DNA of 64,000 nucleotides. It comes from a virus. The position numbers and the translations under genes were made by a program. The notes below the pieces were generated by a model, which searched no databases, had not been told where the DNA came from, and saw nothing but the letters and a program-made list of their open reading frames with translations. The stretch lies in the IMG/VR virus record IMGVR_UViG_3300042889_001503, positions 186,001 to 250,000 of that record. One strand, 5' to 3'. Below are positions 7,358 through 60,663 of the stretch, in pieces (within the stretch, counting starts at the first letter, position 1; the number at the start of each line of letters is the position of its first letter).

Positions 7358-7678
7358 ATGAAGGATATTATATTAACAGAAAAACAACTTGAAAAGTTGG
7401 TTACCAAAATGAAAACCATTAAAGAAGATGAAGGTCGTGGTTCATATATGGCAAAACAACAATTATATACTATTGTTAAGTTAGCTGAAAAGATGTGGGA
7501 AAAGATGGAAGAAGAAGAAAACGACCAACTTGACGATTGGATGGAAAGTAAAATAGCTCAGGTAGAACAAAGTATTACATCTGTTGTTAGAGCATATATG
7601 TATGACGAATTGAAAGATGATGAAGAAGTTGGGGGAATGAATAAACTAGGGTTTGACGACCTGATAATAGGAAAATAA
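7358..7678 (+). CDS. short-leader protein, acidic
   Basis: Start MKDIILTEKQLEKL at 7358 rather than the upstream in-frame ATG at 7325, which lies over the terminator and late box. Leader L-T-E at residues 6-8 and a second I-K-E near 22-24 fit the [I/L]-x-E rule. The rest is a charged, helical chain (KMWEKMEEEENDQLDDWMESKIAQ). Unknown function. Confidence 0.75.
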   Translation: MKDIILTEKQLEKLVTKMKTIKEDEGRGSYMAKQQLYTIVKLAEKMWEKMEEEENDQLDDWMESKIAQVEQSITSVVRAYMYDELKDDEEVGGMNKLGFDDLIIGK

Positions 7679-7679
7679 A

Positions 7680-8276
7680 ATGGCAGAAGATACATTAAAA
7701 GACAAATTTATGGACAACATTAAAAAAATGGATTCATCAAAAGAAACCAAAGAAGAAACTAAACCAACTGAAACAAAAACAAGTGGTGTTGAGTTATATA
7801 AATTGGATTCTAAGACAATTCAAATATTGACTGACAGAATTAAAGATGAGTATATTGCTCATTACTATTACAGAGCGGCGGCAAATTGGTGTCAAGATAA
7901 GAATTATAAAAAGGCTGCTGAGTTTTTTAATAATGAGGCTGATGATGAATTAGTTCACGCTAAAGGGATTCAAGAGTATATGACAGATTTTAATATCATT
8001 CCGGTAATACCTCAAGCACCAACATCACATAGTTTTGATAGTTTGGTTGATATCATTTACGGAGCGTATAAAGTTGAATTAGCTCTTATGAAAGAGTATA
8101 ACAAAAATTCTCAAGATTTATTTAGTACTGATATTACTACATATGATTTCTTAAAGGCGTATAGAGAATTTCAAAAAAGTGCTGTTGTAGAATATAATGA
8201 TTTAATCAACGCAATTGATTTGGTTGATAAAACAGATAAGTTCCAAGTGTTATACTTTGAACAAACTTATTTCTAA
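7680..8276 (+). CDS. ferritin-like four-helix protein
   Basis: 198 residues. After a charged, flexible 35-residue N-terminus, residues 45-180 read as a ferritin/bacterioferritin bundle: E57 in IKDEYIAHYYYRAAANW, then NEADDELVHAKG with the E-x-x-H pair (E90, H93), and later KVELALMKEYN and SAVVEYNDLINAI with further Glu. These supply the di-iron ligands of the family. Ferritin-like proteins store iron or protect DNA from peroxide; here a host-stress or virion role is inferred. It has no leader but lies between two leader genes with 1-nt gaps. Confidence 0.75.
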   Translation: MAEDTLKDKFMDNIKKMDSSKETKEETKPTETKTSGVELYKLDSKTIQILTDRIKDEYIAHYYYRAAANWCQDKNYKKAAEFFNNEADDELVHAKGIQEYMTDFNIIPVIPQAPTSHSFDSLVDIIYGAYKVELALMKEYNKNSQDLFSTDITTYDFLKAYREFQKSAVVEYNDLINAIDLVDKTDKFQVLYFEQTYF

Positions 8277-8277
8277 A

Positions 8278-9201
8278 ATGAAAGATTTAATCAGACGTAT
8301 ATTAAAAGAACAAGAAGAAGAACCTGTCTTAAGTAAGAAGGAGATTTTGTTGTTTAAATTTATTAACGATAATAAGCAGAAATCAGGAACCAAAACTGAA
8401 ATGATTCGACTTATTAAAGATATGTTAGGATATTTTGGTTTCCCACAAAGTGATGCCACTATGTATTACGAAATATATACCGCTAACTTCAGACCGGACG
8501 GGGACTATAAAAGTTTAACAAAGGACAATTTCAAAGACTATAGACAATTCAAACAAAGAAAAGTTACCAACAATACCGCCTATGAATATGCGACAGCTAA
8601 GATGCCGTTTAAAGGTTCAAACATTGAAGGACAATGGAATGTAAACAATAACAATGATTGGTATTATGTTATTGAGTCATATGGTTGGTATCCGGTATTT
8701 TTATTTATTAATAACCAATGGTATAGAACATTAGATACCTATTCAAGTTCTACTAGAAAACAAATGAGTCAAATTGACCCGGTTAAATACGATTCAAATT
8801 TACGAGCAAATGTTATGAGTATAACTAAAGGTGAGATGGAACGTCTTATAAATGGTAGTTATAATATTGATAGAGTTAAATCTGATAGGGTAACAAGTTT
8901 TGTAACACATAAAGATAATAAGACTAATCAATCAAAATTAATTAGTGGAGGTTATGGTGATAATGCTCATAGAGTTAATTTTATGATTAAAGATATTGAA
9001 GATGTTGATGGTAAAATTAAAATATCTGTTGAAATTCTTAAGGCAGGTAAAATGATTGGTAGAAAAATGTCTCCGGATTCCAATTTTAAAGATGACCCCG
9101 AATTATTGAATAACATTATGAAAACTATTAAACAAGACATACTGAGAACTTATCCGACTCACTTAACGGATGATAACACGGAAATAGAATTATTAAATTA
9201 A
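8278..9201 (+). CDS. helical-leader protein, unknown
   Basis: Start at MKDLIRRILKEQEEE (8278); the longer in-frame start overlaps the ferritin-like gene. The leader is an amphipathic helix with L-K-E at 9-11. The 308-residue body has NNNNDWYYVIESYGWYPVFLFINNQWYR and no recognised family. A terminator follows. Confidence 0.75.
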   Translation: MKDLIRRILKEQEEEPVLSKKEILLFKFINDNKQKSGTKTEMIRLIKDMLGYFGFPQSDATMYYEIYTANFRPDGDYKSLTKDNFKDYRQFKQRKVTNNTAYEYATAKMPFKGSNIEGQWNVNNNNDWYYVIESYGWYPVFLFINNQWYRTLDTYSSSTRKQMSQIDPVKYDSNLRANVMSITKGEMERLINGSYNIDRVKSDRVTSFVTHKDNKTNQSKLISGGYGDNAHRVNFMIKDIEDVDGKIKISVEILKAGKMIGRKMSPDSNFKDDPELLNNIMKTIKQDILRTYPTHLTDDNTEIELLN

Positions 9202-9202
9202 A

Positions 9203-9230
9203 AAAGAGGGACATTTAGTTCCTTTTTTTT
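9203..9230 (+). terminator. rho-independent terminator
   Basis: AGGGA/TTCCT-type stem with eight T. Confidence 0.65.
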
Positions 9231-9250
9231 GTTTATATCAAAAATAGTAT

Positions 9251-9258
9251 TATCTTTG
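9251..9258 (+). promoter_or_regulatory. TATCTTTG promoter
   Basis: 21 nt before ATG 9280, and nearly identical in its flanks to the 3265 promoter. Confidence 0.75.
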
Positions 9259-9279
9259 TACTCACAAAACAGATATACT

Positions 9280-12223: not shown

Positions 12224-12742
12224 ATGAAATTAATAATAACGGAATCCAAACATAAGAGCGTCGTATTCAAATACTTTGATAAGTTTGGGGGTGAGGTAGA
12301 TAATCAATTCATCAATATGTTTAAGTTGGATGATAGAACTGGTATGGTTAGTTATGATGATGCTTACAAATACTTAATTGAGTGGAGAGGTGAGGAAGAA
12401 TCAAAAGAACTTGCCAAAACTTTATTACTTCAGAATCCCCATCATATAGATGAGTATGGTGGATACGATTTCTTCTTTGAGGTGGATGACATTGACTATT
12501 GGGAATTGGATGAAAAACAACCAAATGTTGTTGTTAGTGTAAAAGTTAATGATTTGTCGGGAACAGTTACCGTTTCAAATGGTGAGAATAGAACATTAGA
12601 AGATGCGTTAAATGATGATGATTATGGGTGGGAAGTTAGTGACGAGGTTCAGTGGGGTATAAATGATTATTTCAAGGAGAACATAACATCAAAAACAGGA
12701 ATTAAAGTAATATTTGATTCAGAATATATTAGTCAACAATAA
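12224..12742 (+). CDS. short-leader protein
   Basis: 172 residues with leader MKLIITESKHKSVV (I-T-E at 5-7). The remainder is acidic with VSVKVNDLSGTVTVSNGENRTLEDAL, a beta-rich segment. Unknown function; starts a three-gene + unit. Confidence 0.8.
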   Translation: MKLIITESKHKSVVFKYFDKFGGEVDNQFINMFKLDDRTGMVSYDDAYKYLIEWRGEEESKELAKTLLLQNPHHIDEYGGYDFFFEVDDIDYWELDEKQPNVVVSVKVNDLSGTVTVSNGENRTLEDALNDDDYGWEVSDEVQWGINDYFKENITSKTGIKVIFDSEYISQQ

Positions 12743-16227: not shown

Positions 16228-17313
16228 ATGAGAATTATAATTAAAGAAAACCAATATTTTAAAATATTAGAGAATACTGATATAGAACCGTCAAAAACAA
16301 CTATTAAAAACATTTGTGATAGTGAGAAGTTCTGTAAAGCCCAAGGTAAGATTACCTTTGGTCAGTTACGAGCAATTGTTGAGAGTGCTACAAAACAAAG
16401 AATATTTAAACACGTTGGTGAAGGTGGTGTTAAAGCGACAATTAGATTATTGCCTTGGTTCTTACCACAACTTATGATTCCTGGTATTGTTGGTGGAGTT
16501 ATTAGAGCCGTTAACAAAATATTAAAACCAAGTTTAACTGAAACTGAAAATTATAAAACTTTTTGGGGTAAAGTAATTCTTAAATCATTTCAGGTTGCTG
16601 AGGGTGATTTACATTTAAGTGACCCCTTCTCTAAGATATTCTTCATATCCGATGGTTTAATGACTATGATGGATGATAAATATAAAATTAGGTTTGCTAG
16701 ACATATTGCAGAAATTGCTTCAAACAAACCGGATGACGAAGAAGTTCCTGAGTATTTTGTTGAGAATGAGTTAAGACATTGGGTTAACGATAAGTTTTTA
16801 TTGGACCCACCATTATCATCAAGGTTAAACGAACAAGAGGAAATTGTGGATACAACACCCAACTTTAATAAATTAGTTTATCTACCTGAAGAGAAAGCTA
16901 TGATTGGTGCCTATATGATTACCGGGGATAGTGGGAAGATGATTGATGTATTAAACATTCACGAACAATTGGATAATGCTGGTTTGTTTATGGATGGTGC
17001 GGAATCATACAACATTCATATATTCTTTAGTAAGTTACCAAAATCTCAAATAGAAATGTTAGGTCCGGTTGAAGGTAAAGAAGGTTTTGAATTTATTAAA
17101 ATACCTTATTGGTTGTATAAGAAAATGTCTACAGAATTATCTATCAGACGATACACAAAATTAAAAAGATTATCGATTGCTCGAAGTCAGGTAAATGATT
17201 ACTTTCTTAAATTAATTAACAATCCGGATGTTGAGAGGTATTTTAATATAGTTGATACGGATGATATTAGTCAACAAAGATTTAAATCATATCAAAGACA
17301 TTACAAACCTTAA
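16228..17313 (+). CDS. short-leader protein, unknown
   Basis: 361 residues; leader MRIIIKENQYFKILE (I-K-E at 5-7). Residues about 85-115 hold a moderately hydrophobic stretch (LLPWFLPQLMIPGIVGGVI). The protein is otherwise soluble and unrecognised. Its stop shares TTAA with the convergent 17310 gene. Confidence 0.8.
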   Translation: MRIIIKENQYFKILENTDIEPSKTTIKNICDSEKFCKAQGKITFGQLRAIVESATKQRIFKHVGEGGVKATIRLLPWFLPQLMIPGIVGGVIRAVNKILKPSLTETENYKTFWGKVILKSFQVAEGDLHLSDPFSKIFFISDGLMTMMDDKYKIRFARHIAEIASNKPDDEEVPEYFVENELRHWVNDKFLLDPPLSSRLNEQEEIVDTTPNFNKLVYLPEEKAMIGAYMITGDSGKMIDVLNIHEQLDNAGLFMDGAESYNIHIFFSKLPKSQIEMLGPVEGKEGFEFIKIPYWLYKKMSTELSIRRYTKLKRLSIARSQVNDYFLKLINNPDVERYFNIVDTDDISQQRFKSYQRHYKP

Positions 17314-28964: not shown

Positions 28965-29333
28965 ATGGATGTTAAAATTAGTGAGGGGAAGTTAGAGTTT
29001 TTAATGGATACTATCTTTGATGGTTTGGGTGTAGATGTCAATCGTCTATCACACAATTTCCAAGTAAGAATGAGTTATTTAGAATTTTTAGCTTCTGTAA
29101 CAACAAGACGAGAAATGGTTGCTAAATATGATTTTGAGTGGAATTACATAATTGTGTTTGATGATAAGTTTTATGATTTGGTTAAACCTTGGGTTTCTCG
29201 GAAAGTTTATGATGTAATTAAAGAAGATTTAATTAAGAGAATTTTTAAGGTGTATACCAAGAAATATAAATCAATATATAAAGAGGAGCCTAAATCAATT
29301 AAATTTGTTGATAAGGATTTTAATAAAGTTTAA
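28965..29333 (+). CDS. short-leader-like protein
   Basis: 122 residues starting MDVKISEGKLEFLMD (I-S-E at 5-7). Basic C-terminal half (KRIFKVYTKKYKSIYKEEPK). No family recognised. Confidence 0.75.
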   Translation: MDVKISEGKLEFLMDTIFDGLGVDVNRLSHNFQVRMSYLEFLASVTTRREMVAKYDFEWNYIIVFDDKFYDLVKPWVSRKVYDVIKEDLIKRIFKVYTKKYKSIYKEEPKSIKFVDKDFNKV

Positions 29334-31897: not shown

Positions 31898-32092
31898 ATG
31901 AAGTTAATTATAACAGAGTCACAATATGAAACCATCAACGAGATGATTAAACTTAACATTAAGGTAGGTGATACCATTATGGGTGGAAAATTTAAGAACA
32001 AGAAGGTTGTTGTGAAGACAATCGACAAGAATGAAAAGGGGGATATTACAATAAACGGTAAACCATTGTTACGTTTTAGAATCATAGAATAA
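31898..32092 (+). CDS. short-leader protein
   Basis: 64 residues: MKLIITESQYETINEMIKLN leader (I-T-E at 5-7), then a small basic domain (GGKFKNKKVVVKTIDKNEKGD) with an SH3/OB-like look. First gene of the 31.9-34.4 kb cassette; stop overlaps the next ATG. Confidence 0.78.
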   Translation: MKLIITESQYETINEMIKLNIKVGDTIMGGKFKNKKVVVKTIDKNEKGDITINGKPLLRFRIIE

Positions 32093-32421
32093 TGAAGATA
32101 TTGATTAAAGAAGATAAAAGAGATAGAATTGCCAAACGGTTATTAACTGAGGAATTCTCCGGAATGTATGAAGATGTTAATTATATGACAGATTCACGGG
32201 GGGAACACAAAACAATCGAATACCGTAATGGTGAAGGAATCATAATGATTTACGGTAATACTGATAATATTTTATATATCTGTGAAGATGTCACTCGTCC
32301 ACTTAATCTACTTAGTTACACACCAAAACAACTTAAAGATGTTATTGGTGAATGGTTCTCAGAGTTTTTTGAATTACCGGTTCAATATATTCATCACGTA
32401 AATAAATCAGTGTTAAACTAA
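32092..32421 (+). CDS. short-leader, WF-tail family protein
   Basis: 109 residues. Leader MKILIKEDKRDRIAKRLL (I-K-E at 5-7). Beta-rich middle and the C-terminal motif GEWFSEFFELPVQYIHHV, the same position and pattern as in 40227, 52934 and 58641. Confidence 0.78.
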   Translation: MKILIKEDKRDRIAKRLLTEEFSGMYEDVNYMTDSRGEHKTIEYRNGEGIIMIYGNTDNILYICEDVTRPLNLLSYTPKQLKDVIGEWFSEFFELPVQYIHHVNKSVLN

Positions 32422-33016: not shown

Positions 33017-33396
33017 TGAAAGTATTAATAACTGAGAGCAGATTAGAAAGTTTAATCATTGATTACTTAAATGATTCGTATTACCCTGATTATGGGTGGG
33101 CAAATCCTGATGTTTATCAAAAAGATGTTAAACAATATGGTGATGTTCTTTTCTTTGTTGATGACCGAGAATCTTATATTTATTATGGTTGTAATGCAAA
33201 CGCCGGTCCGGAAGATGAGTTCTTTGCGGGTTATGGTCATCTACATAATTATAAATGTCCTTTACTGTCAATATACCCCCTTATAACTCAAAGATTGGAT
33301 TCTACTTTTGGTGACATATGGAAACCAATATTCAAGAAATGGTTTGAAGATAATACAGGGTTAGAGGTTACTCAATTAACAACAAATTTCATATAA
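33016..33396 (+). CDS. short-leader, WF-tail family protein
   Basis: 126 residues. Leader MKVLITESRLESLIIDYLND; C-terminus FKKWFEDNTGLEVTQLTT. The middle YGWANPDVYQKDVKQYGDVL is similar in layout to the 58641 protein. Confidence 0.78.
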   Translation: MKVLITESRLESLIIDYLNDSYYPDYGWANPDVYQKDVKQYGDVLFFVDDRESYIYYGCNANAGPEDEFFAGYGHLHNYKCPLLSIYPLITQRLDSTFGDIWKPIFKKWFEDNTGLEVTQLTTNFI

Positions 33397-36570: not shown

Positions 36571-37341
36571 ATGAACTTACACGAAGATATACAAAGAATA
36601 AGACAAATGATGATTTCTGAGGAGATGGTCCAATCAGATGCGTGGAAATCAATCAAAAAAACATTAGACATTCTTAAAAAGAAAAAGAAAGTTTTAATCT
36701 TAAGTTGTTCCAATAGATATAATTGGGATGAAAAAAACCTTGACATACCAAAATCAAAGATGATTGCAATGTATCTTAACGATGAGTTAAAAGACTCAGT
36801 GTTAATTGATGTTTCCGAACTTAACATTGTTCCTTGTGAGGGGAATGTATCAAGAAAAGACGGGAACAGTTGTGGATTACTTAAATCTATGCTCAAAGAT
36901 AAGAAAAAGAATCCATCCGGAGACCATAGATGTTGGGCAAGTTATAACAATCCAAAGGATGAGTTATGGAAGATATCCAAAGAGTTATTTGAGTCAGATG
37001 CTGTTGTATTCTTTAGTTCAATTAGATGGGGACAAACCAATATGTTCTATCAGAATTTAATTGAGCGATTGACTTGGATTGAGAACAGACACGCAACATT
37101 GGGGGAATCAAATCTTGTTAAAGATATTGAGACAGGATTCATTTGTGTTGGACAGAATTGGAATGGTGAGAACGTAACTGAAACACAGAAAGAAGTTCAT
37201 AAGTTTTATGGATTCAAACCAAACAATGACTTGTATTGGAATTGGCAATATACCAAAGATGTGAATGATGAAACTCAAAAATCATATAAGGATTCACACA
37301 AGAAGTTTATTAAAGATACAAAATTACCTGAAGATAAATAA
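36571..37341 (+). CDS. NAD(P)H/FMN reductase-like flavodoxin fold with helical leader
   Basis: 256 residues. Leader MNLHEDIQRIRQMMISEEM (I-S-E at 15-17). After it, KKVLILSCSNRYNWDEKNLD, then LKDSVLIDVSELNI, a Cys-containing insert and DAVVFFSSIRWGQTNMFYQN LIERL match the NADPH-dependent FMN reductase fold (phosphate loop after strand 1, then SS-x-R-W-G-Q...K/N-LIER). An oxidoreductase preceded by a packaging-type leader is unusual. The substrate is unknown. Confidence 0.78.
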   Translation: MNLHEDIQRIRQMMISEEMVQSDAWKSIKKTLDILKKKKKVLILSCSNRYNWDEKNLDIPKSKMIAMYLNDELKDSVLIDVSELNIVPCEGNVSRKDGNSCGLLKSMLKDKKKNPSGDHRCWASYNNPKDELWKISKELFESDAVVFFSSIRWGQTNMFYQNLIERLTWIENRHATLGESNLVKDIETGFICVGQNWNGENVTETQKEVHKFYGFKPNNDLYWNWQYTKDVNDETQKSYKDSHKKFIKDTKLPEDK

Positions 37342-38066
37342 TGAACTTACGACATGACATAAAAAGAATATTAAGGGAAGAAACAAATAAAGATTTAACT
37401 TCGGTAATAGAAATGTTATTAGAGGGATTTGTTAATGACCACAAAGACATTCTTTGTAAGGTTGAGGTTAAGCACCCGGACAAGAGAACCAAACTACCAC
37501 ATTCGGATAATGTTTATGAGAATTACAGAGCAACATTTTATTTAATTGCTCATAAAGGTGGGTATTCAACAACAAGAGCTCAATTGATGGATAACGTAAT
37601 GAATGAGGTGTGGGATTTGGTATATAATTATACCGGACAGAAATTAGATATGTTTACCAAACACGTAAAGAGTTGTGACGATATTATAAAAGAGAGTAAA
37701 GATAATAGTATTTCTGATATGATAAAAACTTTGGGGGTTTCTGATGCCATTAAGTATTTTGGGAATTACTACACAATTGAGCCATACTTAAAAGTGGTTG
37801 ATAAAGTTAATTTTATTAAAGAAAAAGTTAGAGAATTAAGTGATGATGGTAGTGGTGTTGGTTTACACGAGATAAATGAAGAGCCACTTCATTATAGTGA
37901 TGAAGATGGGGAGGAACATCAAATAGAATGGTTAGGACTAACAAGTGTAGACATTAGTGTATATGAAGATGAGTATAGTGGTCATTTAAGGGACTATTAT
38001 TCTAAGTATGAAAGTTTACCTGTGCAAATAATTGAGGAATTGGTTGAGATATTATTAAACCACTAA
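37341..38066 (+). CDS. helical-leader protein (family with 38070, 38618)
   Basis: 241 residues, leader MNLRHDIKRILREETN (L-R-E at 11-13). Residues about 130-230 (AIKYFGNYYTIEPYLKVVDK, FIKEKVRELS) align with the 38618 protein, showing paralogy. N-terminal half unrecognised. Confidence 0.77.
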   Translation: MNLRHDIKRILREETNKDLTSVIEMLLEGFVNDHKDILCKVEVKHPDKRTKLPHSDNVYENYRATFYLIAHKGGYSTTRAQLMDNVMNEVWDLVYNYTGQKLDMFTKHVKSCDDIIKESKDNSISDMIKTLGVSDAIKYFGNYYTIEPYLKVVDKVNFIKEKVRELSDDGSGVGLHEINEEPLHYSDEDGEEHQIEWLGLTSVDISVYEDEYSGHLRDYYSKYESLPVQIIEELVEILLNH

Positions 38067-38069
38067 GAT

Positions 38070-38615
38070 ATGAATTTAAACGAGAACATACATAGAATCC
38101 ATCAGATGATGGGTGTAGTGAGTGAAGATGTGAGTCCAAACACTGTTAAAACAATAATTGATATATTAGGTATTAGAGATGCTATTAATTATTATGGGGG
38201 TTATGAGAACCTTAAAAAATATCTAAATTTGGTTTATGATAGGAAGAGTGGTAAATGGGTGCACGCGAGTACATTACAGACCAATCCTGTTGATTTAAAT
38301 ACTATTACATCAAGAGAAGATAAGATTGAGTTTATTAAGGATACAATTTTTACTCAATACTACGGATTGTTTACTTATGGAGATGAAGGTTGGGACGAGA
38401 GTGATTATTCTGTGTTAGAGAGTACTGAAACTTATGAAAAGGTAGCATTTACATACTATACTGATGAATTAAATGTAACAACATTTTATAGAAATGAGAA
38501 TGGTGAGTTTTCATCTCAAACCGAAAATGATGACCATAGTGAAACAATTAAATATGAGGATTTACCGGATGATATGATTAATAACGCATTTGAGTTTATA
38601 GCTAAAAAAATTTAA
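38070..38615 (+). CDS. helical-leader protein, paralogue
   Basis: 181 residues. MNLNENIHRIHQMMGVVSED leader; the first 44 nt of this gene are identical to those of 38618. Body motif AINYYGGYENLKKYLNL relates it to its neighbours. Confidence 0.78.
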   Translation: MNLNENIHRIHQMMGVVSEDVSPNTVKTIIDILGIRDAINYYGGYENLKKYLNLVYDRKSGKWVHASTLQTNPVDLNTITSREDKIEFIKDTIFTQYYGLFTYGDEGWDESDYSVLESTETYEKVAFTYYTDELNVTTFYRNENGEFSSQTENDDHSETIKYEDLPDDMINNAFEFIAKKI

Positions 38616-38617
38616 TT

Positions 38618-39076
38618 ATGAATTTAAACGAGAACATACATAGAATCCATCAGATGATGGGGATTATCAATGAGAATAAAGTGGTTGATGTTGTTCAAGA
38701 AATGGGGTTATACCAAGCCACTCGTTATTTTGGGGGTTATGACAAAGTTACAAAATTAATGGGGGATTATGTGTTCTCAAATGAAGAAATGATTGATTTT
38801 ATTAGAGAGGCTATAAAACATTTAGCTTACAAACATAATTCAACCGGGATATCTACGTATGAATTAAATATGAATTCTATTCCATATGGTTCTCCTGATG
38901 AGGAGTTACATCAAATTGAGTATTTCAACCCGGAGTATGTTACCATAGATGTTTATGGTGGTGAAGAGTATGAAAGACACAGAAGTAGTTATACTGAACG
39001 ATATGAGGATTTGGATGATAATACATTAGATGAGGTTTTCCTGTTTATGGTTGACGCAGTAGAACACTACAAATAG
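38618..39076 (+). CDS. helical-leader protein, paralogue
   Basis: 152 residues. MNLNENIHRIHQMMGIINEN leader (I-N-E at 17-19). ATRYFGGYDKVTKLMGDY then MIDFIREAIKHLA parallels the 37341 protein. Confidence 0.78.
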   Translation: MNLNENIHRIHQMMGIINENKVVDVVQEMGLYQATRYFGGYDKVTKLMGDYVFSNEEMIDFIREAIKHLAYKHNSTGISTYELNMNSIPYGSPDEELHQIEYFNPEYVTIDVYGGEEYERHRSSYTERYEDLDDNTLDEVFLFMVDAVEHYK

Positions 39077-39078
39077 AT

Positions 39079-39492
39079 ATGAGTTTACAAGATACCATAA
39101 GAAGAATATTAAGAGAGGAATCCTATTCTCCGGCGAGTGATGAATATACTCCGGGGGAATATATTGTTCATAAATCAAATCCTATATGGAGAGACAACAT
39201 AGAACTTACCGGATTACAAACATCGGTGGGGGAATGTTATCAATCACACGTCGGTGACGATGAAGAATGTAAACCATCCATATTTGCAACAGATTCATTA
39301 GATGAAAAAGATATGTTTGATTCCACATATGACGATGACATTTGGATTATCAATACGGAATGTGCCGGGGTTACTTGGTATAAAGACAAACATTTTGATG
39401 GTGGATATTACAAACATCATATAGTTACATTCGAGAACATATCACCGGACTGTCTTAGATTATTATATAAAGGAACGGGGAAAAGTTATTAA
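39079..39492 (+). CDS. helical-leader protein
   Basis: 137 residues, leader MSLQDTIRRILREESYSPAS (L-R-E at 11-13). The body (PIWRDNIELTGLQTSVGECY, PSIFATDSLDEKDMFD, TWYKDKHFDGGYYKHHIVT) has the layout of ADP-ribosyltransferase-like phage proteins that carry IFAT and KD motifs, but I cannot confirm it. Confidence 0.75.
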   Translation: MSLQDTIRRILREESYSPASDEYTPGEYIVHKSNPIWRDNIELTGLQTSVGECYQSHVGDDEECKPSIFATDSLDEKDMFDSTYDDDIWIINTECAGVTWYKDKHFDGGYYKHHIVTFENISPDCLRLLYKGTGKSY

Positions 39493-39876: not shown

Positions 39877-40230
39877 TTAATCAATATGATATTTAGTGAT
39901 ATGATATCTACCACATTTATTACAATGCCAAGTAGTATATACAACCTTTTCAACGTGTAGATTATATCTTTCCATAAACCAAGGGATAAAGATATCGTTT
40001 ATATCATAACCACTTGTAACACCAAACATAGATACTAATTGATTTGATATCTCCTCAGATAATTCAACTATTCCATTATCACGATTAAATGTGAAAGACA
40101 TATCGTCACCACTATCTTTATAGATAATAAATCTATGACCAACGGAATACTTCCTTAAGTTACCATAGTCCATATCCAACCATTTGGTAACGACATTTTT
40201 TCTCTTGTTCTCTGTGATTATTACTTTCAT
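39877..40230 (-). CDS. short-leader, WF-tail protein with zinc knuckle
   Basis: 117 residues, leader MKVIITENKRKNVVTKWL (I-T-E at 5-7). The tail IPWFMERYNLHVEKVVYTTWHCNKCGRYH adds CxxC...H to the family motif. Overlaps the upstream paralogue by 4 nt. Confidence 0.78.
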   Translation of the reverse strand: MKVIITENKRKNVVTKWLDMDYGNLRKYSVGHRFIIYKDSGDDMSFTFNRDNGIVELSEEISNQLVSMFGVTSGYDINDIFIPWFMERYNLHVEKVVYTTWHCNKCGRYHITKYHID

Positions 40231-40532
40231 ATTTGTTCTACTCTATGACATTTCTTGGCTCTAAACCCAAACTTTTTATTACCCCAATCCAATAACAACT
40301 CACTAACTTCATCGTTATCAAATCCGAACATACTACGGATAAAATCCCATATTTCATTTAAAACATAGAATCCTTTTACTCTACTGTTGTAAAGCATTTT
40401 GAACATTCCCTTATCGGATATGAATACTCCTTCGTGTGAGGGGAATATCATCTTTTTTAAGTCGGGATATTCCTCTTCTAACCAATTAATGGCGAGACGG
40501 ATTCGTTTGTTCTCTGTGATTATAATCTTCAT
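40227..40532 (-). CDS. short-leader, W-tail family protein
   Basis: 101 residues, leader MKIIITENKRIRLAINWL. Then SMFGFDNDEVSELLLDWGNK KFGFRAKKCHRV. Paralogous to 39877 and 52934. Confidence 0.78.
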   Translation of the reverse strand: MKIIITENKRIRLAINWLEEEYPDLKKMIFPSHEGVFISDKGMFKMLYNSRVKGFYVLNEIWDFIRSMFGFDNDEVSELLLDWGNKKFGFRAKKCHRVEQI

Positions 40533-47729: not shown

Positions 47730-48062
47730 ATGTTTTCAGCAGGTGGAGTTTATGTAATGGTAGCAGGAATCCTATTGGGATTAGCTGTTATAGGTGGGTC
47801 AGTTTATTATGTTAATAAAATGTTTGCTGATAACACTCAGGAAATATTGGTTCGGTTTATTTTATTAATATTCACCTCATTGGTTGCGTTATTTATTGTT
47901 GATAAGGTAATTGCTTGGCAGGTTAAACTATTGAGTGATGAGCAGAATGGGCAATTATTTGATTTGATTAAAACATTGGTGTTAATGATATTCTCGTATT
48001 ACTTTGGAACTAAAGAAGGAGTTGAAACCAATGGTGACCAAAATAAGAAAGATAAAGAATGA
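47730..48062 (+). CDS. small membrane protein, holin-like
   Basis: 110 residues from MFSAGGVYVMVAGILLGLAV. Two to three membrane helices (about 3-24, 37-56, 72-85), the last ending in IFSYYFGTKEG, and a charged C-terminus NGDQNKKDKE. The size, topology and (Y)FG(T/S)-x-EG end resemble phage holins. A late-type box fits lysis timing. No endolysin is adjacent. Confidence 0.55.
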   Translation: MFSAGGVYVMVAGILLGLAVIGGSVYYVNKMFADNTQEILVRFILLIFTSLVALFIVDKVIAWQVKLLSDEQNGQLFDLIKTLVLMIFSYYFGTKEGVETNGDQNKKDKE

Positions 48063-48364
48063 AAATTATTATAACAGAAGAACAGTATGGTAGAATGTTT
48101 AATTCCAAACTTTGGTTAAGACGTAACTATGATTTGGTTAAACAGGAGTTGAAGGCTACAATGGACTTCACCCGGGACCGTATCTGTGATAAAGATGAAT
48201 TTGAAAATTTTGAATATTATTTCTTCTCCGTGTTTATGGATTGCCTTCACCCTTATTATTATGAGGAAGAGAATTTTGATTATAAGGAATTTCAAACCAC
48301 GTTAACTGATATGTTCTATGTTGAATGTACCGAGTTTTATTTTAACGGTAGAGAGAAATGTTAA
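48059..48364 (+). CDS. short-leader protein
   Basis: 101 residues, leader MKIIITEEQYGRMFNSKL (I-T-E at 5-7). Acidic, Tyr-rich body. Overlaps the holin-like gene by 4 nt; opens the second cassette. Confidence 0.77.
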   Translation: MKIIITEEQYGRMFNSKLWLRRNYDLVKQELKATMDFTRDRICDKDEFENFEYYFFSVFMDCLHPYYYEEENFDYKEFQTTLTDMFYVECTEFYFNGREKC

Positions 48365-48398: not shown

Positions 48399-48764
48399 AT
48401 GAGAATTATTATAACAGAAAGTAAATTTAAAAGTATGGTTACCAAAATGGTTGGGTATGATTTATCCCACCGTATTGAGATGATTACAAGTTGGGAGAAT
48501 TTAACCGGTTCGGAAAAACATAATGTATTTGGTGATAATAAATCTATTTTTGTTCAGTATCAAAACCATTATGGTCCGATGTATATATTTTCAAATTTTA
48601 AAGGACATAATTATTTGGCTCAAAATCAAAAAGGTAAACTATGGTTTATTGTTGATACAAGTACTGGATACGAAATAGATTACTATGATTTTTTACAAAT
48701 GCTTAATCTTGATATGACGGGTATTAGTTTAAGAAAAATAATCGATGAATTTGCTGAAGAATGA
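48399..48764 (+). CDS. short-leader protein
   Basis: 121 residues from MRIIITESKFKSMVTKMV, start set by the late box. Middle NKSIFVQYQNHYGPMYIF. No family. 4-nt overlap with the next gene. Confidence 0.77.
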   Translation: MRIIITESKFKSMVTKMVGYDLSHRIEMITSWENLTGSEKHNVFGDNKSIFVQYQNHYGPMYIFSNFKGHNYLAQNQKGKLWFIVDTSTGYEIDYYDFLQMLNLDMTGISLRKIIDEFAEE

Positions 48765-49099
48765 AAATAATAATTACAGAAAGTAAAGTTGGGCAAGTAA
48801 AAAATTTAGTACAAGAAATTATTGATGATGAGTTAAATAACTTACGTCAAGAGGCTGATGAAGAGTGGGGTTTGGGTGAAATGGATGAGATAAATGAGGT
48901 TGGTTCTGTTGAAAAGATTGTTGTTGATGAAATAAAAACAACTGATGGTATTAGTGTTAATGTCAATCTTTATTTAAACACAGATAGAGAAGATTTTGAA
49001 ATAATTTTACCAATGATTGAATATACTATTGAGCAATGGATTCCTAATGCTAAAATTCATATAAACAAAATATATCTAAATGAAAATAATAATTACTGA
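48761..49099 (+). CDS. short-leader acidic protein
   Basis: 112 residues, leader MKIIITESKVGQVKNLVQ; Glu-rich helix then a beta-alpha half. Overlaps the next gene by 20 nt: the end of this ORF encodes NENNNY in the same bases as the next MKIIITE. Confidence 0.76.
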   Translation: MKIIITESKVGQVKNLVQEIIDDELNNLRQEADEEWGLGEMDEINEVGSVEKIVVDEIKTTDGISVNVNLYLNTDREDFEIILPMIEYTIEQWIPNAKIHINKIYLNENNNY

Positions 49100-49400
49100 G
49101 AGACAGAATAATTTATTGATGGAGGATTTACCCATTAGTCTTCGTAGACGAATTAATTATAATATTCTTAAAGACCATTTGGATTTTTCCATATTAGAAT
49201 CCGTTAATCCTTGTGATTATAGTACATTAGGGGATTTTATTGGTGAGATGTGTGATATGATGGTTGTGGATTTTTTAGATGATTTTGAATATGATAGCGG
49301 TCTAAAAGTTAGTCCAAAAGATAAAGATGATTTTTATTATTTTATGACTGATAATTTTGCTGATTACCTTCAAGAATTTTATGATAAACAATGTGCGTAA
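49080..49400 (+). CDS. short-leader acidic protein
   Basis: 106 residues, leader MKIIITERQNNLLMEDLP. Asp-rich C-terminal half. Start is nested inside the previous gene. Confidence 0.76.
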   Translation: MKIIITERQNNLLMEDLPISLRRRINYNILKDHLDFSILESVNPCDYSTLGDFIGEMCDMMVVDFLDDFEYDSGLKVSPKDKDDFYYFMTDNFADYLQEFYDKQCA

Positions 49401-49428: not shown

Positions 49429-49920
49429 ATGAAAAAAATTGTAAGATTAACTGAAGGAGAGTTAACAAATTTAATAAAAAGAATATTAAAGGAGGATTCG
49501 ACAAAAAATAATTGTCATAAAGAATATACAAACCCTGAATCCAATACAGACCCATACATATATAGAATGGGTCCGGAATGTATTTGGCAAACTAAAAGTG
49601 ATAAAACAAAAAAACAAATAGGTAAAGAAATACCTGATTGGATTTCATTATATAAAAATGAAAAGGCAAACCAAAAACTTGATAAATGGTTCCCAAACGC
49701 TAAATCGGATTGTTCAAAATGTAAAAATGGTGGTATTAAAAAAACCCCACCATCTGATTTAATTAAGAAAAAAGTTGATTTAGTTAAGGGTAAAATTGGT
49801 GAAAATAAATGTCCTAAAACCATAAATTGTATGCCGTCACCTAATGGTAAACCTAACCCTTGTGATGATTTTTTTATTAGTTACTGTATCAAATCAGGTA
49901 AGACTTCGGCAACATATTAA
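49429..49920 (+). CDS. helical-leader Cys-rich protein
   Basis: 163 residues from MKKIVRLTEGELTNLIKRIL, containing two candidate sites: L-T-E at 7-9 and L-K-E at 20-22. The body has CxxC (DCSKCKNGG) and further Cys (NKCPKTINCMPS, PCDDFFISYC), suggesting disulfides or metal. Confidence 0.76.
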   Translation: MKKIVRLTEGELTNLIKRILKEDSTKNNCHKEYTNPESNTDPYIYRMGPECIWQTKSDKTKKQIGKEIPDWISLYKNEKANQKLDKWFPNAKSDCSKCKNGGIKKTPPSDLIKKKVDLVKGKIGENKCPKTINCMPSPNGKPNPCDDFFISYCIKSGKTSATY

Positions 49921-49925
49921 TAATT

Positions 49926-50387
49926 ATGAAAAAGAAAATTATAAAATTAACGGAATCAGATTTAAAAAACATTGTGATGAGAATTATCAATGAACAATTT
50001 GATATGGACTACTACGACATTATTTTGGATTTATATAACGAGGTTGGTCTTGAGGGTATGACTGATGAAGAAATTGAATATTTGAAAAGTGGCGGTGAGA
50101 GTAATGTCCCTGAAAGATTTTTGGGTGGAGACTTGGATATTGATTCTGAGGAATCTGAAGATTTTGGTGGACTTGATAGATTCAAGGAAATTATGGACGG
50201 ATACAATCATAAGATTGTGGATACCGCTCCCGACGGTAAGTTGAGAGTTGTCTTTAGAGAAAACCCTGAGATATTGGAAAGACTTGATGGTGTGGTTCCG
50301 GAATCATTAATAGAAGTTAGACAAGGACATATAATCATTCTTGTTCCTGAAAATTGGACGGATGATATTTTCGGAGAAGAAATATAA
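49926..50387 (+). CDS. helical-leader protein
   Basis: 153 residues, MKKKIIKLTESDLKNIVMRI start, with L-T-E at 8-10 and I-N-E at about 21-23: the same compound leader as the previous gene. Acidic body. Confidence 0.76.
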   Translation: MKKKIIKLTESDLKNIVMRIINEQFDMDYYDIILDLYNEVGLEGMTDEEIEYLKSGGESNVPERFLGGDLDIDSEESEDFGGLDRFKEIMDGYNHKIVDTAPDGKLRVVFRENPEILERLDGVVPESLIEVRQGHIIILVPENWTDDIFGEEI

Positions 50388-51804: not shown

Positions 51805-52932
51805 ATGAATATTAAGATAAGTAAAAATCAATACGATAAATTAAAAAAGAAAATACAATTGACAATTGATTTCCCAAAAGAAATCGTTGTTAGGTTTGGA
51901 GGTTTTAAACCCGACGACTATTACCAACCAACATTTGTGTATCTTGATGAAATGCCTGAAGATGATATTCTTAAACTAAAAGAGTTAAAAGATAGAAACG
52001 AGGGTTTAACCGTTAAACTTAATAATATTTACACAAAAGAAGAATTTGATTTCCCGTTGGAAATTATAAATTTCACTAAATCACGAGGTAATCCATACAT
52101 ATTTAAATCAGAATACGAAAAGATTGAATCCGAACTTGAATCCCACGAACTTATATTAAGTGCTGATTTATTAAAAAAATCAATTTCAAAATTTCCTCAA
52201 TTTATGTTGAATACGTTATATGACCTATATCCAAATAATATTGGTAAAAATAGTTTCATTGATGGTGATGGTATTTGTAATAGTGAAGATGGGTTGATAG
52301 ATATTCCAAACACAAATGTTCCCGGACAAACTTGGTCAATCCTTAATTATTTTGATACCAATCCAATGGTTATCAAAAAACTTATTGAATGGTTTATGCA
52401 CGGGGTATTTAATAATAATGAGACACCAAAGATAGTTTCTAACGAGAAATTTAAGGAATGGATTAAAAATAATTCATCCTCATTGTTTAAAGATGGTGAA
52501 TACTTGGAGGAACTCGTTAACATTAATCTTAAATCATATAAGTCAGGGGTAAAAACCGAAAATTCGGCAATTAAAAAATTAACTGAATCACCATTTAATA
52601 TTGATGGAAAAAACATTAAACAATATTGTTCAGGTTCAAAACAAGATAGAGTTGATGGTAAAGATATTGAAATAACGACTACTGAAGGTGTTCGTTATGC
52701 TCAGATTAAACCATTATCGGGGTATAAGGTTAATGAAATTACAATAGAAAATAAAATTACAAAAGAATATGAGGTTAACACTTATCAAATGAAAAACTAT
52801 AAGAGTAAACCAATTCAATATCTTATTTTCTCAAACGCAAAAAATATTTTAATATTTGAAAATAATAATTACAAAATTATTGGTACCGGTTTAGTAGTGT
52901 TTAAAAATCCACCATTATCTAATTTAGATTAA
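51805..52932 (+). CDS. possible PD-(D/E)xK nuclease with variant leader
   Basis: 375 residues. MNIKISKNQYDKLKKKIQ has the leader shape but lacks the Glu of I-x-E. Near residues 278-302, GSKQDRVDGKDIEITTTEG and YAQIKPL could be a D...(E/Q)-x-K nuclease core (D287, Q300, K302). The N-terminal half (to about 150) is separate, with DGDGICNSEDGLID, a Ca-loop-like segment. Function assignment tentative. Confidence 0.5.
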   Translation: MNIKISKNQYDKLKKKIQLTIDFPKEIVVRFGGFKPDDYYQPTFVYLDEMPEDDILKLKELKDRNEGLTVKLNNIYTKEEFDFPLEIINFTKSRGNPYIFKSEYEKIESELESHELILSADLLKKSISKFPQFMLNTLYDLYPNNIGKNSFIDGDGICNSEDGLIDIPNTNVPGQTWSILNYFDTNPMVIKKLIEWFMHGVFNNNETPKIVSNEKFKEWIKNNSSSLFKDGEYLEELVNINLKSYKSGVKTENSAIKKLTESPFNIDGKNIKQYCSGSKQDRVDGKDIEITTTEGVRYAQIKPLSGYKVNEITIENKITKEYEVNTYQMKNYKSKPIQYLIFSNAKNILIFENNNYKIIGTGLVVFKNPPLSNLD

Positions 52933-52933
52933 T

Positions 52934-53254
52934 ATGAGGGTTATAATTACAGAAGATAAAAGGGAACGTCTTATTGATAATTTTTTATCTGAGGAATATG
53001 GTGGATTAATCCGATATGAACCTAAAAACAGACCTGACCTTATTTTTTTTGTAAAAGACACGGGAAAAGACCCTATAAAAAGAGATATTGTATTATTTTA
53101 CAATAAAGATGACCAATATGCTTTTATTAATTGGAATATTGTGGATAGTATTAGAATGTTCACCGGTGATGAATGGGACTCAGAACAATTTGTTAAAAGA
53201 TGGTTAAAGAAAACTTACGGGATTGACCCGATTAAATTATACAACAATTTTTAA
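52934..53254 (+). CDS. short-leader, WL-tail family protein
   Basis: 106 residues, leader MRVIITEDKRERLIDNFL. FFVKDTGKDPIKRDIVLFYN middle, then FVKRWLKKTYGIDPIKLYNN. Closely parallels 40227. Confidence 0.78.
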   Translation: MRVIITEDKRERLIDNFLSEEYGGLIRYEPKNRPDLIFFVKDTGKDPIKRDIVLFYNKDDQYAFINWNIVDSIRMFTGDEWDSEQFVKRWLKKTYGIDPIKLYNNF

Positions 53255-53255: not shown

Positions 53256-54071
53256 ATGAACAAAAGATTAAAATACTTATCTCTTATTAAGAAATTAATT
53301 TCTTGCGAAAGTCGTGAGCAATTATCCGACACTATTAAAGAAATTAATGAATTTAATAAAGAATATTCTATTACCTCAACGTCGGAAGAATTTAAAAAAT
53401 TTGAAATTGCTATTGCAGTAATGAGAGTTAAATTAAAACGTAAACACGATATTATAGAAAACCAATTGAGGGGTCAAAAACAAAATAACAAGACTAATAT
53501 GAAAATAGTAATTACAGAAAGACAAGAAGATTTATTATTCAGTTTACTAACCGAAGGGGAAAACAAACCAACCAACCCAAAGTTATGGGCACAATGTCTT
53601 GCTTGGGCAAGGTCAAGATATAAAGTATGTCCAAGTGCGTATTGTAATGGAGCTGCTGCCAAACGATATAAATCAAAAGGTGGTGGATGGAGAAAAAATA
53701 AAAAATCCACTAATGAGGCATCAAGTCCAACACAACAAGCGGCGATTGCCATCAATATGAAGAAGAAAGGGGTTGAACCAAAGAACGAAAATGTTAATGA
53801 AGATTTGAAAAGATGGTTTAAGGAGAAGTGGGTTGATGTAAGCAAAAAAGTTGACGGGAAACATCCACCCTGTGGAAGAAAGGACGCTGATGGTAAGTCA
53901 TATCCAAAATGTCGTCCATCAAAAAAGGTTTCATCTGAAACACCTAAGGTGGCTTCATCATATGATAAAGATGAGAAGAAAGCGATGACACAACAAAAAC
54001 GAAGAGCTGAAAAGAAAGACCCAAAAGTGGGAACAGGAAATAAACCAACAATGACACATTACGAAAAATGA
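53256..54071 (+). CDS. DUF5872-type protein with internal leader start
   Basis: 271 residues from MNKRLKYLSLIKKLIS. At 53499 an in-frame ATG begins MKIVITERQEDLLFSLLTEG, a perfect short leader, so a 190-residue second product is likely. That part contains LWAQCLAWARSRYKVCPSAY CNGAAAKRYKSKGGGW and LKRWFKEKWVDV...PPCGR...YPKCRPS, patterns I associate with DUF5872 and related marine-virus proteins. Basic and probably virion-associated. The upstream 81 codons look like a separate helical protein, fused without a stop. Confidence 0.76.
   Translation: MNKRLKYLSLIKKLISCESREQLSDTIKEINEFNKEYSITSTSEEFKKFEIAIAVMRVKLKRKHDIIENQLRGQKQNNKTNMKIVITERQEDLLFSLLTEGENKPTNPKLWAQCLAWARSRYKVCPSAYCNGAAAKRYKSKGGGWRKNKKSTNEASSPTQQAAIAINMKKKGVEPKNENVNEDLKRWFKEKWVDVSKKVDGKHPPCGRKDADGKSYPKCRPSKKVSSETPKVASSYDKDEKKAMTQQKRRAEKKDPKVGTGNKPTMTHYEK
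53499..54071 (+). CDS. nested short-leader form of the DUF5872-type protein
   Basis: Alternative product of the same frame. Leader I-T-E at 5-7 and L-T-E at about 17-19. If the leader must be N-terminal to work, this is the packaged form. ATG is preceded by AAGACTAAT with no late box visible. Confidence 0.55.
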   Translation: MKIVITERQEDLLFSLLTEGENKPTNPKLWAQCLAWARSRYKVCPSAYCNGAAAKRYKSKGGGWRKNKKSTNEASSPTQQAAIAINMKKKGVEPKNENVNEDLKRWFKEKWVDVSKKVDGKHPPCGRKDADGKSYPKCRPSKKVSSETPKVASSYDKDEKKAMTQQKRRAEKKDPKVGTGNKPTMTHYEK

Positions 54072-54439
54072 AAATAGTGATTACAGAATCTCAATACAAC
54101 AAACTATTCAACGACTTAGACGATAGTTTTTTTGGAACCGTAGAAGAAACCAACTTTGTTGTTGGTGACTTACTGACTGAGGCGGAATATCAGGGACGCA
54201 AAGTTCAACTTGGTAAAATTATGCAAGGGGATGTTAAAAAATTCAAAGTGTATGTTAAGAACGACAAAGGAAATGTTGTTAAGGTTAACTTTGGTTTTGG
54301 TGGTAAATCGGCAAAAGGAAAACGAATGGTTATCAAAAAAAATAATCCGGCTAGAAGAAAATCTTTTAGAGCAAGAATGAATTGTGATAGTCCGGGACCA
54401 AGATGGAAAGCAAGATACTGGGCTTGTAGAACTTGGTAA
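54068..54439 (+). CDS. short-leader virion-type basic protein
   Basis: 123 residues, leader MKIVITESQYNKLFNDLD. YQGRKVQLGKIMQGDVKKFK, then VKVNFGFGGKSAKG and RRKSFRARMNCDSPGPRWKA RYWACRTW is a conserved pattern in many marine and uncultured phages (Cys and Trp at the end), function unknown. Overlaps the previous gene by 4 nt. Confidence 0.8.
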   Translation: MKIVITESQYNKLFNDLDDSFFGTVEETNFVVGDLLTEAEYQGRKVQLGKIMQGDVKKFKVYVKNDKGNVVKVNFGFGGKSAKGKRMVIKKNNPARRKSFRARMNCDSPGPRWKARYWACRTW

Positions 54440-58118: not shown

Positions 58119-58132
58119 AATTTAATGAAAAT

Positions 58133-58627: not shown

Positions 58628-58637
58628 GATATTTATT
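58628..58637 (+). promoter_or_regulatory. late-type box GATATTTATT
   Basis: Begins 1 nt after the SGNH stop and ends 3 nt before ATG 58641. Confidence 0.65.
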
Positions 58638-58640
58638 GAT

Positions 58641-59033
58641 ATGAAAATTATAATAACTGAGAGTAAATTAAATCAAGCGGTCATTGATTACCTGAACGAG
58701 ACATACGATACCAATAACATTGGTTGGACATATGGTATTGATGATTGGGGTAATGAAGTGGACTACGCAATTGAATTTTATACTGACGATTATGATGAAG
58801 GTGATAATACTTTATTTAGATGGTATGGTGAAGATTATTGGGATAGTGATGATGCTGATGGTTGGGGTGAACCATATCGTAGCGAATTAAAAAGTAAATC
58901 TCCTTTGTTAATATTTGAAAATGATGATGTTTTTATTGCTTTAAACGGTTATTTTGGTGATAAATGGAAACAACCATTTATTGATTGGTTTTGGGATAAA
59001 TTCCACGTACCGGTTAAGACAATCAATAAGTAG
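58641..59033 (+). CDS. short-leader, WF-tail family protein
   Basis: 130 residues from MKIIITESKLNQAVIDYLNE. Asp/Trp-rich middle (YGEDYWDSDDADGWGEPYRS) and tail PFIDWFWDKFHVPVKTINK. Start fixed by the late box. Confidence 0.8.
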   Translation: MKIIITESKLNQAVIDYLNETYDTNNIGWTYGIDDWGNEVDYAIEFYTDDYDEGDNTLFRWYGEDYWDSDDADGWGEPYRSELKSKSPLLIFENDDVFIALNGYFGDKWKQPFIDWFWDKFHVPVKTINK

Positions 59034-59114
59034 TGGAAAATAATTGATAAAATACCTCTTTTAGTGGAAAAAAACGCCATAAATGGTATAAAATTTGATA
59101 TTTAATGGAAAACT

Positions 59115-59375
59115 ATGAAAAAAATTGTATTACTTTTAATGTTGGTTTTGTTAACTTCTTGTGAAGGTTATCAGACTATGGTTTACGCTTACGGTATTCG
59201 TCAAAGACCAGAACCACAACCAAGACCAAAACGAGTGTATCATTATTACACACCATACACTTATTATCCGGTAGTGACTCCGGTTTATGTTTATCCACGA
59301 AGATTTTCCGCACCATATTTTAATGTTAGAGGGAACAACTTTGAACAACAACATCAGGGGGGAAGAAGACGTTAA
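59115..59375 (+). CDS. predicted lipoprotein, Pro/Tyr-rich
   Basis: 86 residues. MKKIVLLLMLVLLTSC ends in the lipobox LLTSC. The mature part is RQRPEPQPRPKRVYHYYTPY-like and low complexity, ending in HQGGRRR. Envelope surface location likely; function unknown. Confidence 0.78.
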   Translation: MKKIVLLLMLVLLTSCEGYQTMVYAYGIRQRPEPQPRPKRVYHYYTPYTYYPVVTPVYVYPRRFSAPYFNVRGNNFEQQHQGGRRR

Positions 59376-59410
59376 TTTTTTTTAATCAATTTGGATTTTT
59401 ATTTTTTTGA

Positions 59411-59452
59411 GATATTTATAAAAACTAGAGCATTATATTACTAGTTTTTTTT
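59411..59452 (+). ncRNA. orphan late-type box followed at once by a terminator hairpin
   Basis: GATATTTATA at 59411-59420, then AAACTAG/CTAGTTT stem (59422-59447) and eight T. No ORF lies between this box and the next terminator at 59500. Could be a very short transcript or a decoy/vestigial unit. Confidence 0.35.
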
Positions 59453-59499
59453 ATTAAATTTATTCTTATTATTAAGATAAAAATATCAAGACCCAAATT

Positions 59500-59522
59500 C
59501 CCTCCTGTCCGGAGGGTTTTTT
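59500..59522 (+). terminator. rho-independent terminator
   Basis: CCCTCC / GGAGGG stem with T-run, the second of two consecutive terminators. Confidence 0.8.
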
Positions 59523-59531
59523 ATTTACACA

Positions 59532-59541
59532 GATATTTATA
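59532..59541 (+). promoter_or_regulatory. late-type box GATATTTATA
   Basis: 3 nt before ATG 59545. Confidence 0.65.
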
Positions 59542-59544
59542 GTT

Positions 59545-60663
59545 ATGAAAATTAAGATTACCGAAACTCAATATAAAAATTTAGACGAAGCCGTTGGTGT
59601 CCCAACCAATATTATTTCCGTCTCCCAACAACTATACGATAAGATGATGTTGGAACTTAGACCCAACGCCAATTTAAACGCTCAATTCCAAAAAACAATT
59701 ACCTTAAAAGGTGATTTTCAAATTAACGAATATAAGTTTGACACAATAAAATTATCTTTTAATGTTCACGATTTGGATGATTATGAATTTGACGGTATAG
59801 AAAAACCTAAAGTGTTGTTAAATGGTATGACACACCACGGGAAGGTTAAGATGAATGCTAAGTTTAATTATGAGGCAAACCAAAATATGAACAAAATTGA
59901 ATTGTCAATTACTTTTGTTGTTGATAATGATGCGACAAGTCAAGACGTTATTGATGAGTTTAAGAAAGAACGAACATTAATGATTTCAAGTTTGGCTCAC
60001 GAACTAAAACACGCTTATGATGAATCTGTTAACCCAATAGTTCAAACACATAAAAGAGTTGATTATAATATTGGGACTCAAAGAAGATTTGGGAATATCC
60101 CACCGTTAAATAAATTATTAAATTATATGTATTTTGCTCACACCACAGAAAATTTGGTTAGAGCAACTGAAGTATATGCCGCGTTGGAAGAGAGTGGAAT
60201 CACAAAGGAAGATTTTCTTAAATTTATCACAAACCATAAAGTTTACGTTGCCTATAAAGATGGGATTAATTTAACTTACGAGGGATTAAAAGAAGATTTA
60301 AAGAATATTATTCCTCAAATTAAACAAACTTTTGACGATAGTGGTATTAGTTATCCGGAGGACGCATCTGATGATGAGATGGTTGAAGTGACATTAGAGG
60401 TATTCTTTAAAACATTATTACAATGGAAAGCTGGTGGTATGAGAGATTTTTTAACCGATGATTTTATGGAAGAACTATTTGGATTCAGAGGTGCTAAACA
60501 AAGATATTTTGATAAGTATCTTAGTAAGATTACTCGATTTGGTAACGACTACGAGAAATTCTTCAAATATGAGATTAATCAAACAAGAAACATTTGTCTT
60601 AAGATGACAAAAAAATTAAGTAAATTATATTCCTTAATAAAAGACAAAAACCCCCAACAATAG
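59545..60663 (+). CDS. zinc metallopeptidase-like protein with short leader
   Basis: 372 residues. Leader MKIKITETQYKNLDEAVG (I-T-E at 5-7). ISSLAHELKHAYDES at about 148-161 has HExxH (HELKH 152-156), the zinc-binding helix of metallopeptidases. A downstream third ligand cannot be named; E near 178-182 or H207 (FAHTTEN) are options. If the leader directs packaging, this is a protease carried in the virion. Confidence 0.75.
   Translation: MKIKITETQYKNLDEAVGVPTNIISVSQQLYDKMMLELRPNANLNAQFQKTITLKGDFQINEYKFDTIKLSFNVHDLDDYEFDGIEKPKVLLNGMTHHGKVKMNAKFNYEANQNMNKIELSITFVVDNDATSQDVIDEFKKERTLMISSLAHELKHAYDESVNPIVQTHKRVDYNIGTQRRFGNIPPLNKLLNYMYFAHTTENLVRATEVYAALEESGITKEDFLKFITNHKVYVAYKDGINLTYEGLKEDLKNIIPQIKQTFDDSGISYPEDASDDEMVEVTLEVFFKTLLQWKAGGMRDFLTDDFMEELFGFRGAKQRYFDKYLSKITRFGNDYEKFFKYEINQTRNICLKMTKKLSKLYSLIKDKNPQQ

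Follow-up and report, generated by a model that had tools for sequence, protein, structure and literature searches.

In T4, three internal proteins (IPs) and Alt are packaged into the head via short N-terminal leaders, and the IPs of T-even phages include anti-restriction proteins (PMC3012670). These propeptides are about 7 aa long in Alt and 10-19 aa in the IPs, the cleavage motif of the prohead protease gp21 is L/I-x-E, and ten residues of IPIII are enough for packaging (PMC9026906). The giant phages phiKZ and SPN3US likewise carry many head-internal proteins, several of which a distant gp21 relative cleaves on the C-terminal side of Glu (PMC10052503, PMC9026906). Here we describe a family of leaders in a giant T4-like phage, most of them encoded in a 64-kb window (G000:C1:186001-250000) of the 272,437-base virus record IMGVR_UViG_3300042889_001503. 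Judged from sequence, they are very probably capsid-targeting propeptides cleaved by the phage's own prohead protease.

Simple gene calls over the whole record gave 335 genes (94% coding). About 25 of these, some 20 of them inside the window, start with an MKxxITE-type leader and are termed class A; copies beyond the window lie at genome positions 90376, 90780, 180408, 267365 and 267601 (other coordinates refer to the window unless marked as genome positions). A leader open reading frame (ORF) was present at every position listed in the first-pass annotation. The 12-15 shared residues described there proved too long, as the strictly common stretch covers about 7-9 residues. I/L-x-E at residues 5-7 in all but a few copies was borne out: Glu7 closes [ILV]xE in every gene below except those at 7358 and 51805.

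7358-7678 (+): MKDIILTE..MKTIKEDE leader gene, 106 aa, motif closing at Glu8
12224-12742 (+): MKLIITESK leader gene, 172 aa; relatives at loci L030/L031 begin MKLKITEQQ
16228-17313 (+): MRIIIKENQ leader gene, 361 aa; late-type promoter at -12
28965-29333 (+): MDVKISEGK leader gene, 122 aa
31898-32092 (+): MKLIITESQYETINE leader, then KOW-like module, 64 aa; KOW E 0.006, which misses the cut-off
32092-32421 (+): MKILIKEDK leader gene, paralog family
33016-33396 (+): MKVLITESR leader gene, paralog family
33396-33695 (+): MKVLIKESK leader gene
33698-34027 (+): MRIVITENK leader gene
34024-34353 (+): MKILITENK leader gene, paralog family
39877-40230 (-): MKVIITENK leader gene, paralog family
40227-40532 (-): MKIIITENK leader gene, paralog family; late-type promoter at -13
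48059-48364 (+): MKIIITEEQ leader gene
48399-48764 (+): MRIIITESK leader gene; late-type promoter at -13
48761-49099 (+): MKIIITESK leader gene
49080-49400 (+): MKIIITERQ leader gene
52934-53254 (+): MRVIITEDK leader gene, paralog family
53499-54071 (+): MKIVITERQEDLLFSLLTE leader, then DUF5872 domain (PF19197, E 1.9e-15, residues 24-173)
54068-54439 (+): MKIVITESQ..DLLTE leader, then phrog_7595 module from residue 39
58641-59033 (+): MKIIITESK leader gene, paralog family (g58641); predicted fold from residue 7
59545-60663 (+): MKIKITETQ leader, then putative HExxH peptidase (HELKH)
936-2342 (+): variant leader MKKLIKESG, then DHH-like phosphoesterase
51805-52932 (+): leader MNIKISKNQ, degenerate and lacking Glu; late-type promoter at -12

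Glu at residue 7 within [ILV]xE was found in 30 of the 335 genes against about 5 expected (internal rate 1.5%, P = 1.8e-14). When a degenerate DNA pattern for MKIIITE[S/T]K was searched for in IMG/VR, 31 stretches were retrieved, all of them starting ORFs of at least 52 aa. The permuted pattern gave 0 matches in IMG/VR, and the pattern itself 0 matches across 84,980 bacterial and archaeal genomes.

As in capsid-targeting sequences (CTSs) of the T4 type, the leader is a short N-terminal extension (~6-19 residues) closing in L/I-x-E. With the CTSs of T4 IPI-IPIII it shares a short MK...L/IxE propeptide, diverse small proteins behind it and a gp21-type protease (PMC9026906, PMC3012670). The two differ in sequence (MK[IVL]xI[TK]E here, MKTYQEFIAE in T4) and in number (~25 genes against three), and further leader classes occur here. 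T4 Alt, with a propeptide of ~6-7 residues and an ORF start of MELITE, comes near MKIIITE in length and ending (PMC9026906); it is, however, a single ADP-ribosyltransferase, and no cargo of the present phage was matched to it. Unlike the phiKZ and SPN3US ejection proteins, the proteins described here come with a clear Peptidase_S77, an L/IxE-type motif and a common short leader on mostly small cargo. The type of mechanism proposed is known from T4; in its leader sequence, in how many cargo proteins it has and in its parallel leader classes, the phage goes beyond the descriptions found.

The first-pass annotation had proposed searching the rest of the genome for a gp21-like protease and a gp22-like scaffold. 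A gp21-type prohead protease was found at genome 28476-29201 (Peptidase_S77, E 5e-25), together with a portal gene and a gp23-type major capsid protein (MCP; E 2e-65). For the scaffold, an acidic candidate lies between the protease and MCP genes, but it has no family match. The MCP contains LYENQASFLINE↓ATGEG (...YENQASFLINE↓ATGEG), with LINE↓A at residue 60, and T4 gp23 reads ...FGSFLTE↓AEIGG at a comparable place. By its position, LINE↓A is probably the MCP maturation site, and it has the same motif as the leaders. Right after the MCP gene, an Endonuclease VII/HNH-like gene (genome 33104-33784) starts with MKKILLE and has a late-type promoter at -12; its product is perhaps packaged as well.

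Two cargo modules allowed the junction behind the leader to be compared among phages, with [ILVMF]xE sought within 16 aa upstream of the module (background rate 28%). The motif preceded the phrog_7595 module in all 70 distinct loci with a homolog and the KOW-like module of 31898 in 57 of 61, where it lies just upstream. Pooled, this makes 127/131 (binomial P ~5e-65, not a strict probability, as the loci are partly related). In 54068 the phrog_7595 module begins directly after LLTE, and the P1 residue, Glu38, was invariant in 21 aligned homologs. The sequence upstream of this module varies freely: it may be MKIIITESQYNKLF, IIQISEEQFERLF, KIIRLTESDLKRI, NINEIIKKVLREE, MISLQELLNEE or MKTFQEYLKEA, and in other loci a large protein ends at this point. 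Depending on the phage, the KOW-like module follows MKIIITEEQYxxLNE or else MKSFKEFLDE, MKSFKQYLEE or MKFYKYIKE. Shared modules are preceded by MKIIITE, LTESDL, NEIIKKVLxEE or T4-IP-like leaders (MKTFQEYLKEA, MKSFKEFLDE, MKSFKQYLEE, MKKFKQYIDE); the T4 ipII and ipIII ORFs start with MKTYQEFIAEA, the alt ORF with MELITE. Since orthologous modules carry either leader type, MKIIITE occupies the place of a T4-like CTS and exchanges with it in position. This leader swapping is the deciding evidence for the proposed capsid targeting. Homologs of the DHH-like protein of 936 (L061, L062, L070) have a second leader, MKIIITESQYK, stacked ahead of the first (MKIIITESQYKMLIKES).

Phages with and without the protease were also compared. 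Eleven phages lack Peptidase_S77 and carry phrog_7595 or DUF5872 modules (HTVC202P, HTVC111P, HTVC106P, HTVC023P, Kolga, Aegir, CRP-2, CRP-3, CRP-6, CRP-902 and DSL-LC04). In these, the module begins at or near the first Met, mostly as MAKYxGR (MAKYQGR, MAKYKGR, MATYKGK and similar), whereas sequence precedes the module in the S77-bearing HTVC008M, C48C1 and S-BM3. C48C1 has a clear [LI]xE leader (MKKFKQYIDEG...LELTE↓AEYQGKK). In IMG/VR, all 12 records of at least 250 kb that bear modules or leaders encode Peptidase_S77, as do 27 of 36 such records of any length, the remainder being possibly incomplete. Flavobacterium phage immuto lacks the MKIIITE class; two of its genes start with MKKQILSEQFxRMQxLAGIITES, and its MCP site reads IVSE↓A. 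In Roseobacter phage CRP-6, gp55 (L274:833-1519) has the phrog_7595 module N-terminal to a Peptidase_S78_2 head maturation protease (E 7e-18), a fusion that ties the module to the head interior independently.

The capsid targeting put forward in the first-pass annotation is supported by the Peptidase_S77, the MCP motif, the T4-IP-like leaders on orthologous modules and the lack of such leaders in S77-lacking phages. A motif [AG]TATTTAT, probably the late promoter given its place before structural genes, was found at 14/17 leader operon heads and at 24/108 other non-structural heads (odds ratio 16, P = 3e-6), or at 16/17 leader operon heads when two gene starts are shifted to the Met of the leader. 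This pattern fits late expression of the leader genes. What the sequence shows is a shared leader, a gene for the protease, a matching site in the MCP, modular junctions, leader swapping and late-type promoters; core binding, cleavage, packaging and injection are steps that we infer. Cargo proteins with an MK[I/V/L]xI[T/K]E start would be made late in infection, and the leader would bind to one of the prohead core components; the cargo would in this way become enclosed during shell assembly. The gp21-type Peptidase_S77 would then cut after [I/L]xE, at Glu7 and often at a second site at ~15-38, and the mature cargo, freed within the head, would be injected together with the DNA.

Several points weigh against this reading. 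L/IxE is a short motif, and the leader of 51805 has lost its Glu. MKIIITE resembles the T4 IP CTS only in starting with MK and ending in IxE; the start of T4 Alt also departs from MKTYQEFIAE, so letter similarity is not strictly defining of a CTS. Among the phages compared, HTVC008M has a longer N-terminal stretch but QEN, not LxE, ahead of its KOW module, and the S77-lacking CRP-6 shows LEE upstream of its module. Few independent lineages stand behind the S77-lacking controls, and the association of leader and protease is confounded with T4-type ancestry. In the g58641 family, K9, L10, I14 and Y17, which lie past Glu7 in a helix, are likewise conserved, so the leader does not account for all conservation. 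No virion proteomics on this phage or a close relative was found in the literature. The text of open papers gave none for immuto, which among annotated isolates on Bacteroidota hosts was the nearest one found, and the T4 and SPN3US work found there does not describe this leader class.

Of the other explanations, the one that survives best, though we consider it unlikely, is that the leader is cleaved without being the address, for example as an inhibitory pro-region, with targeting by another part of the protein or by co-assembly. The cleavage junction is indeed the best-evidenced element, targeting being deduced from position and from T4, and some modules form the C-terminal portion of a large protein that has an LxE junction and no short leader. 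Against it, seven identical residues stand on otherwise dissimilar proteins that have little else to serve as a shared address, and ten such residues suffice in T4 (PMC9026906).

The leader could also be the start of one continuous, diverged protein family whose copies are paralogs. For clustering of the cargo, 14-25 N-terminal residues were trimmed and coverage limits applied. The 25 class A proteins of the genome then fell into 16-20 families, and the 257 distinct class A ORFs from all gathered loci into 80-109. Single linkage without coverage limits had given one family of 17/25, which was rejected as chaining through fused ORFs. The largest family comprises 8-9 of the 25 copies, paralogs of ~100-130 aa that group together even after trimming (32092, 33016, 34024, 39877(-), 40227(-), 52934, 58641 and genome 90376). 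The earlier description of the proteins as unrelated and completely divergent therefore stands for most of them and fails for these paralogs, and its count of about 22 unrelated proteins was overstated. These paralogs, and the conserved helix residues beyond Glu7 in the g58641 family, speak for a single family. The remaining copies, however, form at least 15 more families, including DUF5872, phrog_7595, KOW-like and HExxH proteins, and identical modules are found behind other leaders or none. Moreover, the AlphaFold model of g58641 (pLDDT 89.8) shows coil at residues 1-6 and the first helix from residue 7, placing the leader outside the predicted fold. These results refute, as a full account, the possibility raised at the outset that the leader opens one continuous conserved domain, and a single family is very improbable.

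Of two cargo assignments made from the sequence alone, the DUF5872-type protein of 53499 matched that domain, and the protein of 59545, with its HELKH motif, is a putative HExxH peptidase. Besides the latter, a second possible metallopeptidase, a HELRH protein starting with NKIQIKEA, adjoins the head genes (genome 35526-36755). Comparison of the cargo proteins with Pfam, PHROGs and PADLOC gave next to no functional assignment. A fold search with the g58641 model found nothing in the PDB at E 0.001, and all its matches were uncharacterised phage proteins; AlphaFold gave no confident model for the phrog_7595 protein (pLDDT 39.6). Their small size and diversity suggest that the cargo proteins may, like Alt and the IPs of T4, be effectors that counter host defences or help to take over the host.

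Still less credible is a nucleic-acid feature, either an A-rich initiation region of leaderless late mRNAs or a recombination cassette made up of promoter and gene start. The late-type motif [AG]TATTTAT stands at -12/-13 from the ATG in 8 of the 24 genes of class A, a spacing that suggests leaderless transcripts and would favour such a feature. However, among pairs of identical leader residues the same codon was used in a fraction of 0.52, where codon usage alone would give 0.49. Codon choice is thus as mixed as usage predicts, and conservation is at the protein level, as first claimed. Promoterless genes inside operons show equal leader conservation, many genes with a -12 promoter lack the leader, and A-richness leaves Glu7 and the I/L at residue 5 unexplained. 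Least credible of all is that the leader directs proteins elsewhere, for instance to the host membrane or to a compartment built by the phage: residues 3-5 after MK are hydrophobic, but the leader is too short for a signal sequence, closes in the gp21 motif, exchanges with T4-type CTSs and is missing in the phages compared that lack Peptidase_S77.

Genome-wide, the late-type motif ATATTTAT lies 11-14 bases ahead of the ATG in 28 genes (e.g. 16228, 28965, 31898, 40532(-), 48399, 58641 and 59545), and a second group is spaced at ~22-26; the close spacing suggests that leaderless late mRNAs would be produced. A host-type promoter element, TAnnTTTG, was seen at 27/108 non-structural operon heads, e.g. 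upstream of genome 1532 and 154892, which suggests a host within the Bacteroidota.

Other leaders also recur in the record, each closing in [IL]xE (often with Q, D or E next) and carried by otherwise different proteins. They are found in the window at 580-936, 36571-39492 and 49429-50387, and at genome positions 2402, 3224, 3898, 33815, 182034, 255869 and 265704. Those in the window are:

580-936 (+): leader class FIISEDEKRDIRSRYGLVNEQ, then PG_binding_1 domain from residue 35
36571-39492 (+): five genes of the leader class MNLxEDIxRIxQMMxxxSE / MxLxxxIxRILRE
49429-49920 (+): leader class KIVRLTEGELTNLIKRILKE
49926-50387 (+): leader class KIIKLTESDLKNIVMRIINEQ

By rough patterns, all leader classes including MKxIITE amount to ~44 genes. 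Two tandem duplicates of 465 and 463 aa (genome 174485-175882 and 175918-177309) start with MKI(I/T)xVLSNL(I/V)TEDARF, both with a late-type promoter. Tentatively, and with somewhat more doubt than confidence, head loading may be a general system in the phage and its relatives, in which ~40-60 proteins carry leaders of several interchangeable classes (MKxIITE, LTESDL, NLHEDIxRIxQMM, RILNLHESATKRQYLxEQ and others) that perhaps differ in the core component they address. If so, a large and mixed set of effectors would be injected at the first moment of infection.

If the MKxxITE leaders are capsid-targeting propeptides, giant T4-like phages carry a readable tag that marks which of their uncharacterised proteins are probably injected. 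The 257 tagged ORFs in 80-109 families, drawn from a small sample, would then provide a rule by which early effectors and anti-defence proteins could be recognised from sequence, and the leaders themselves would be new packaging tags open to direct testing.

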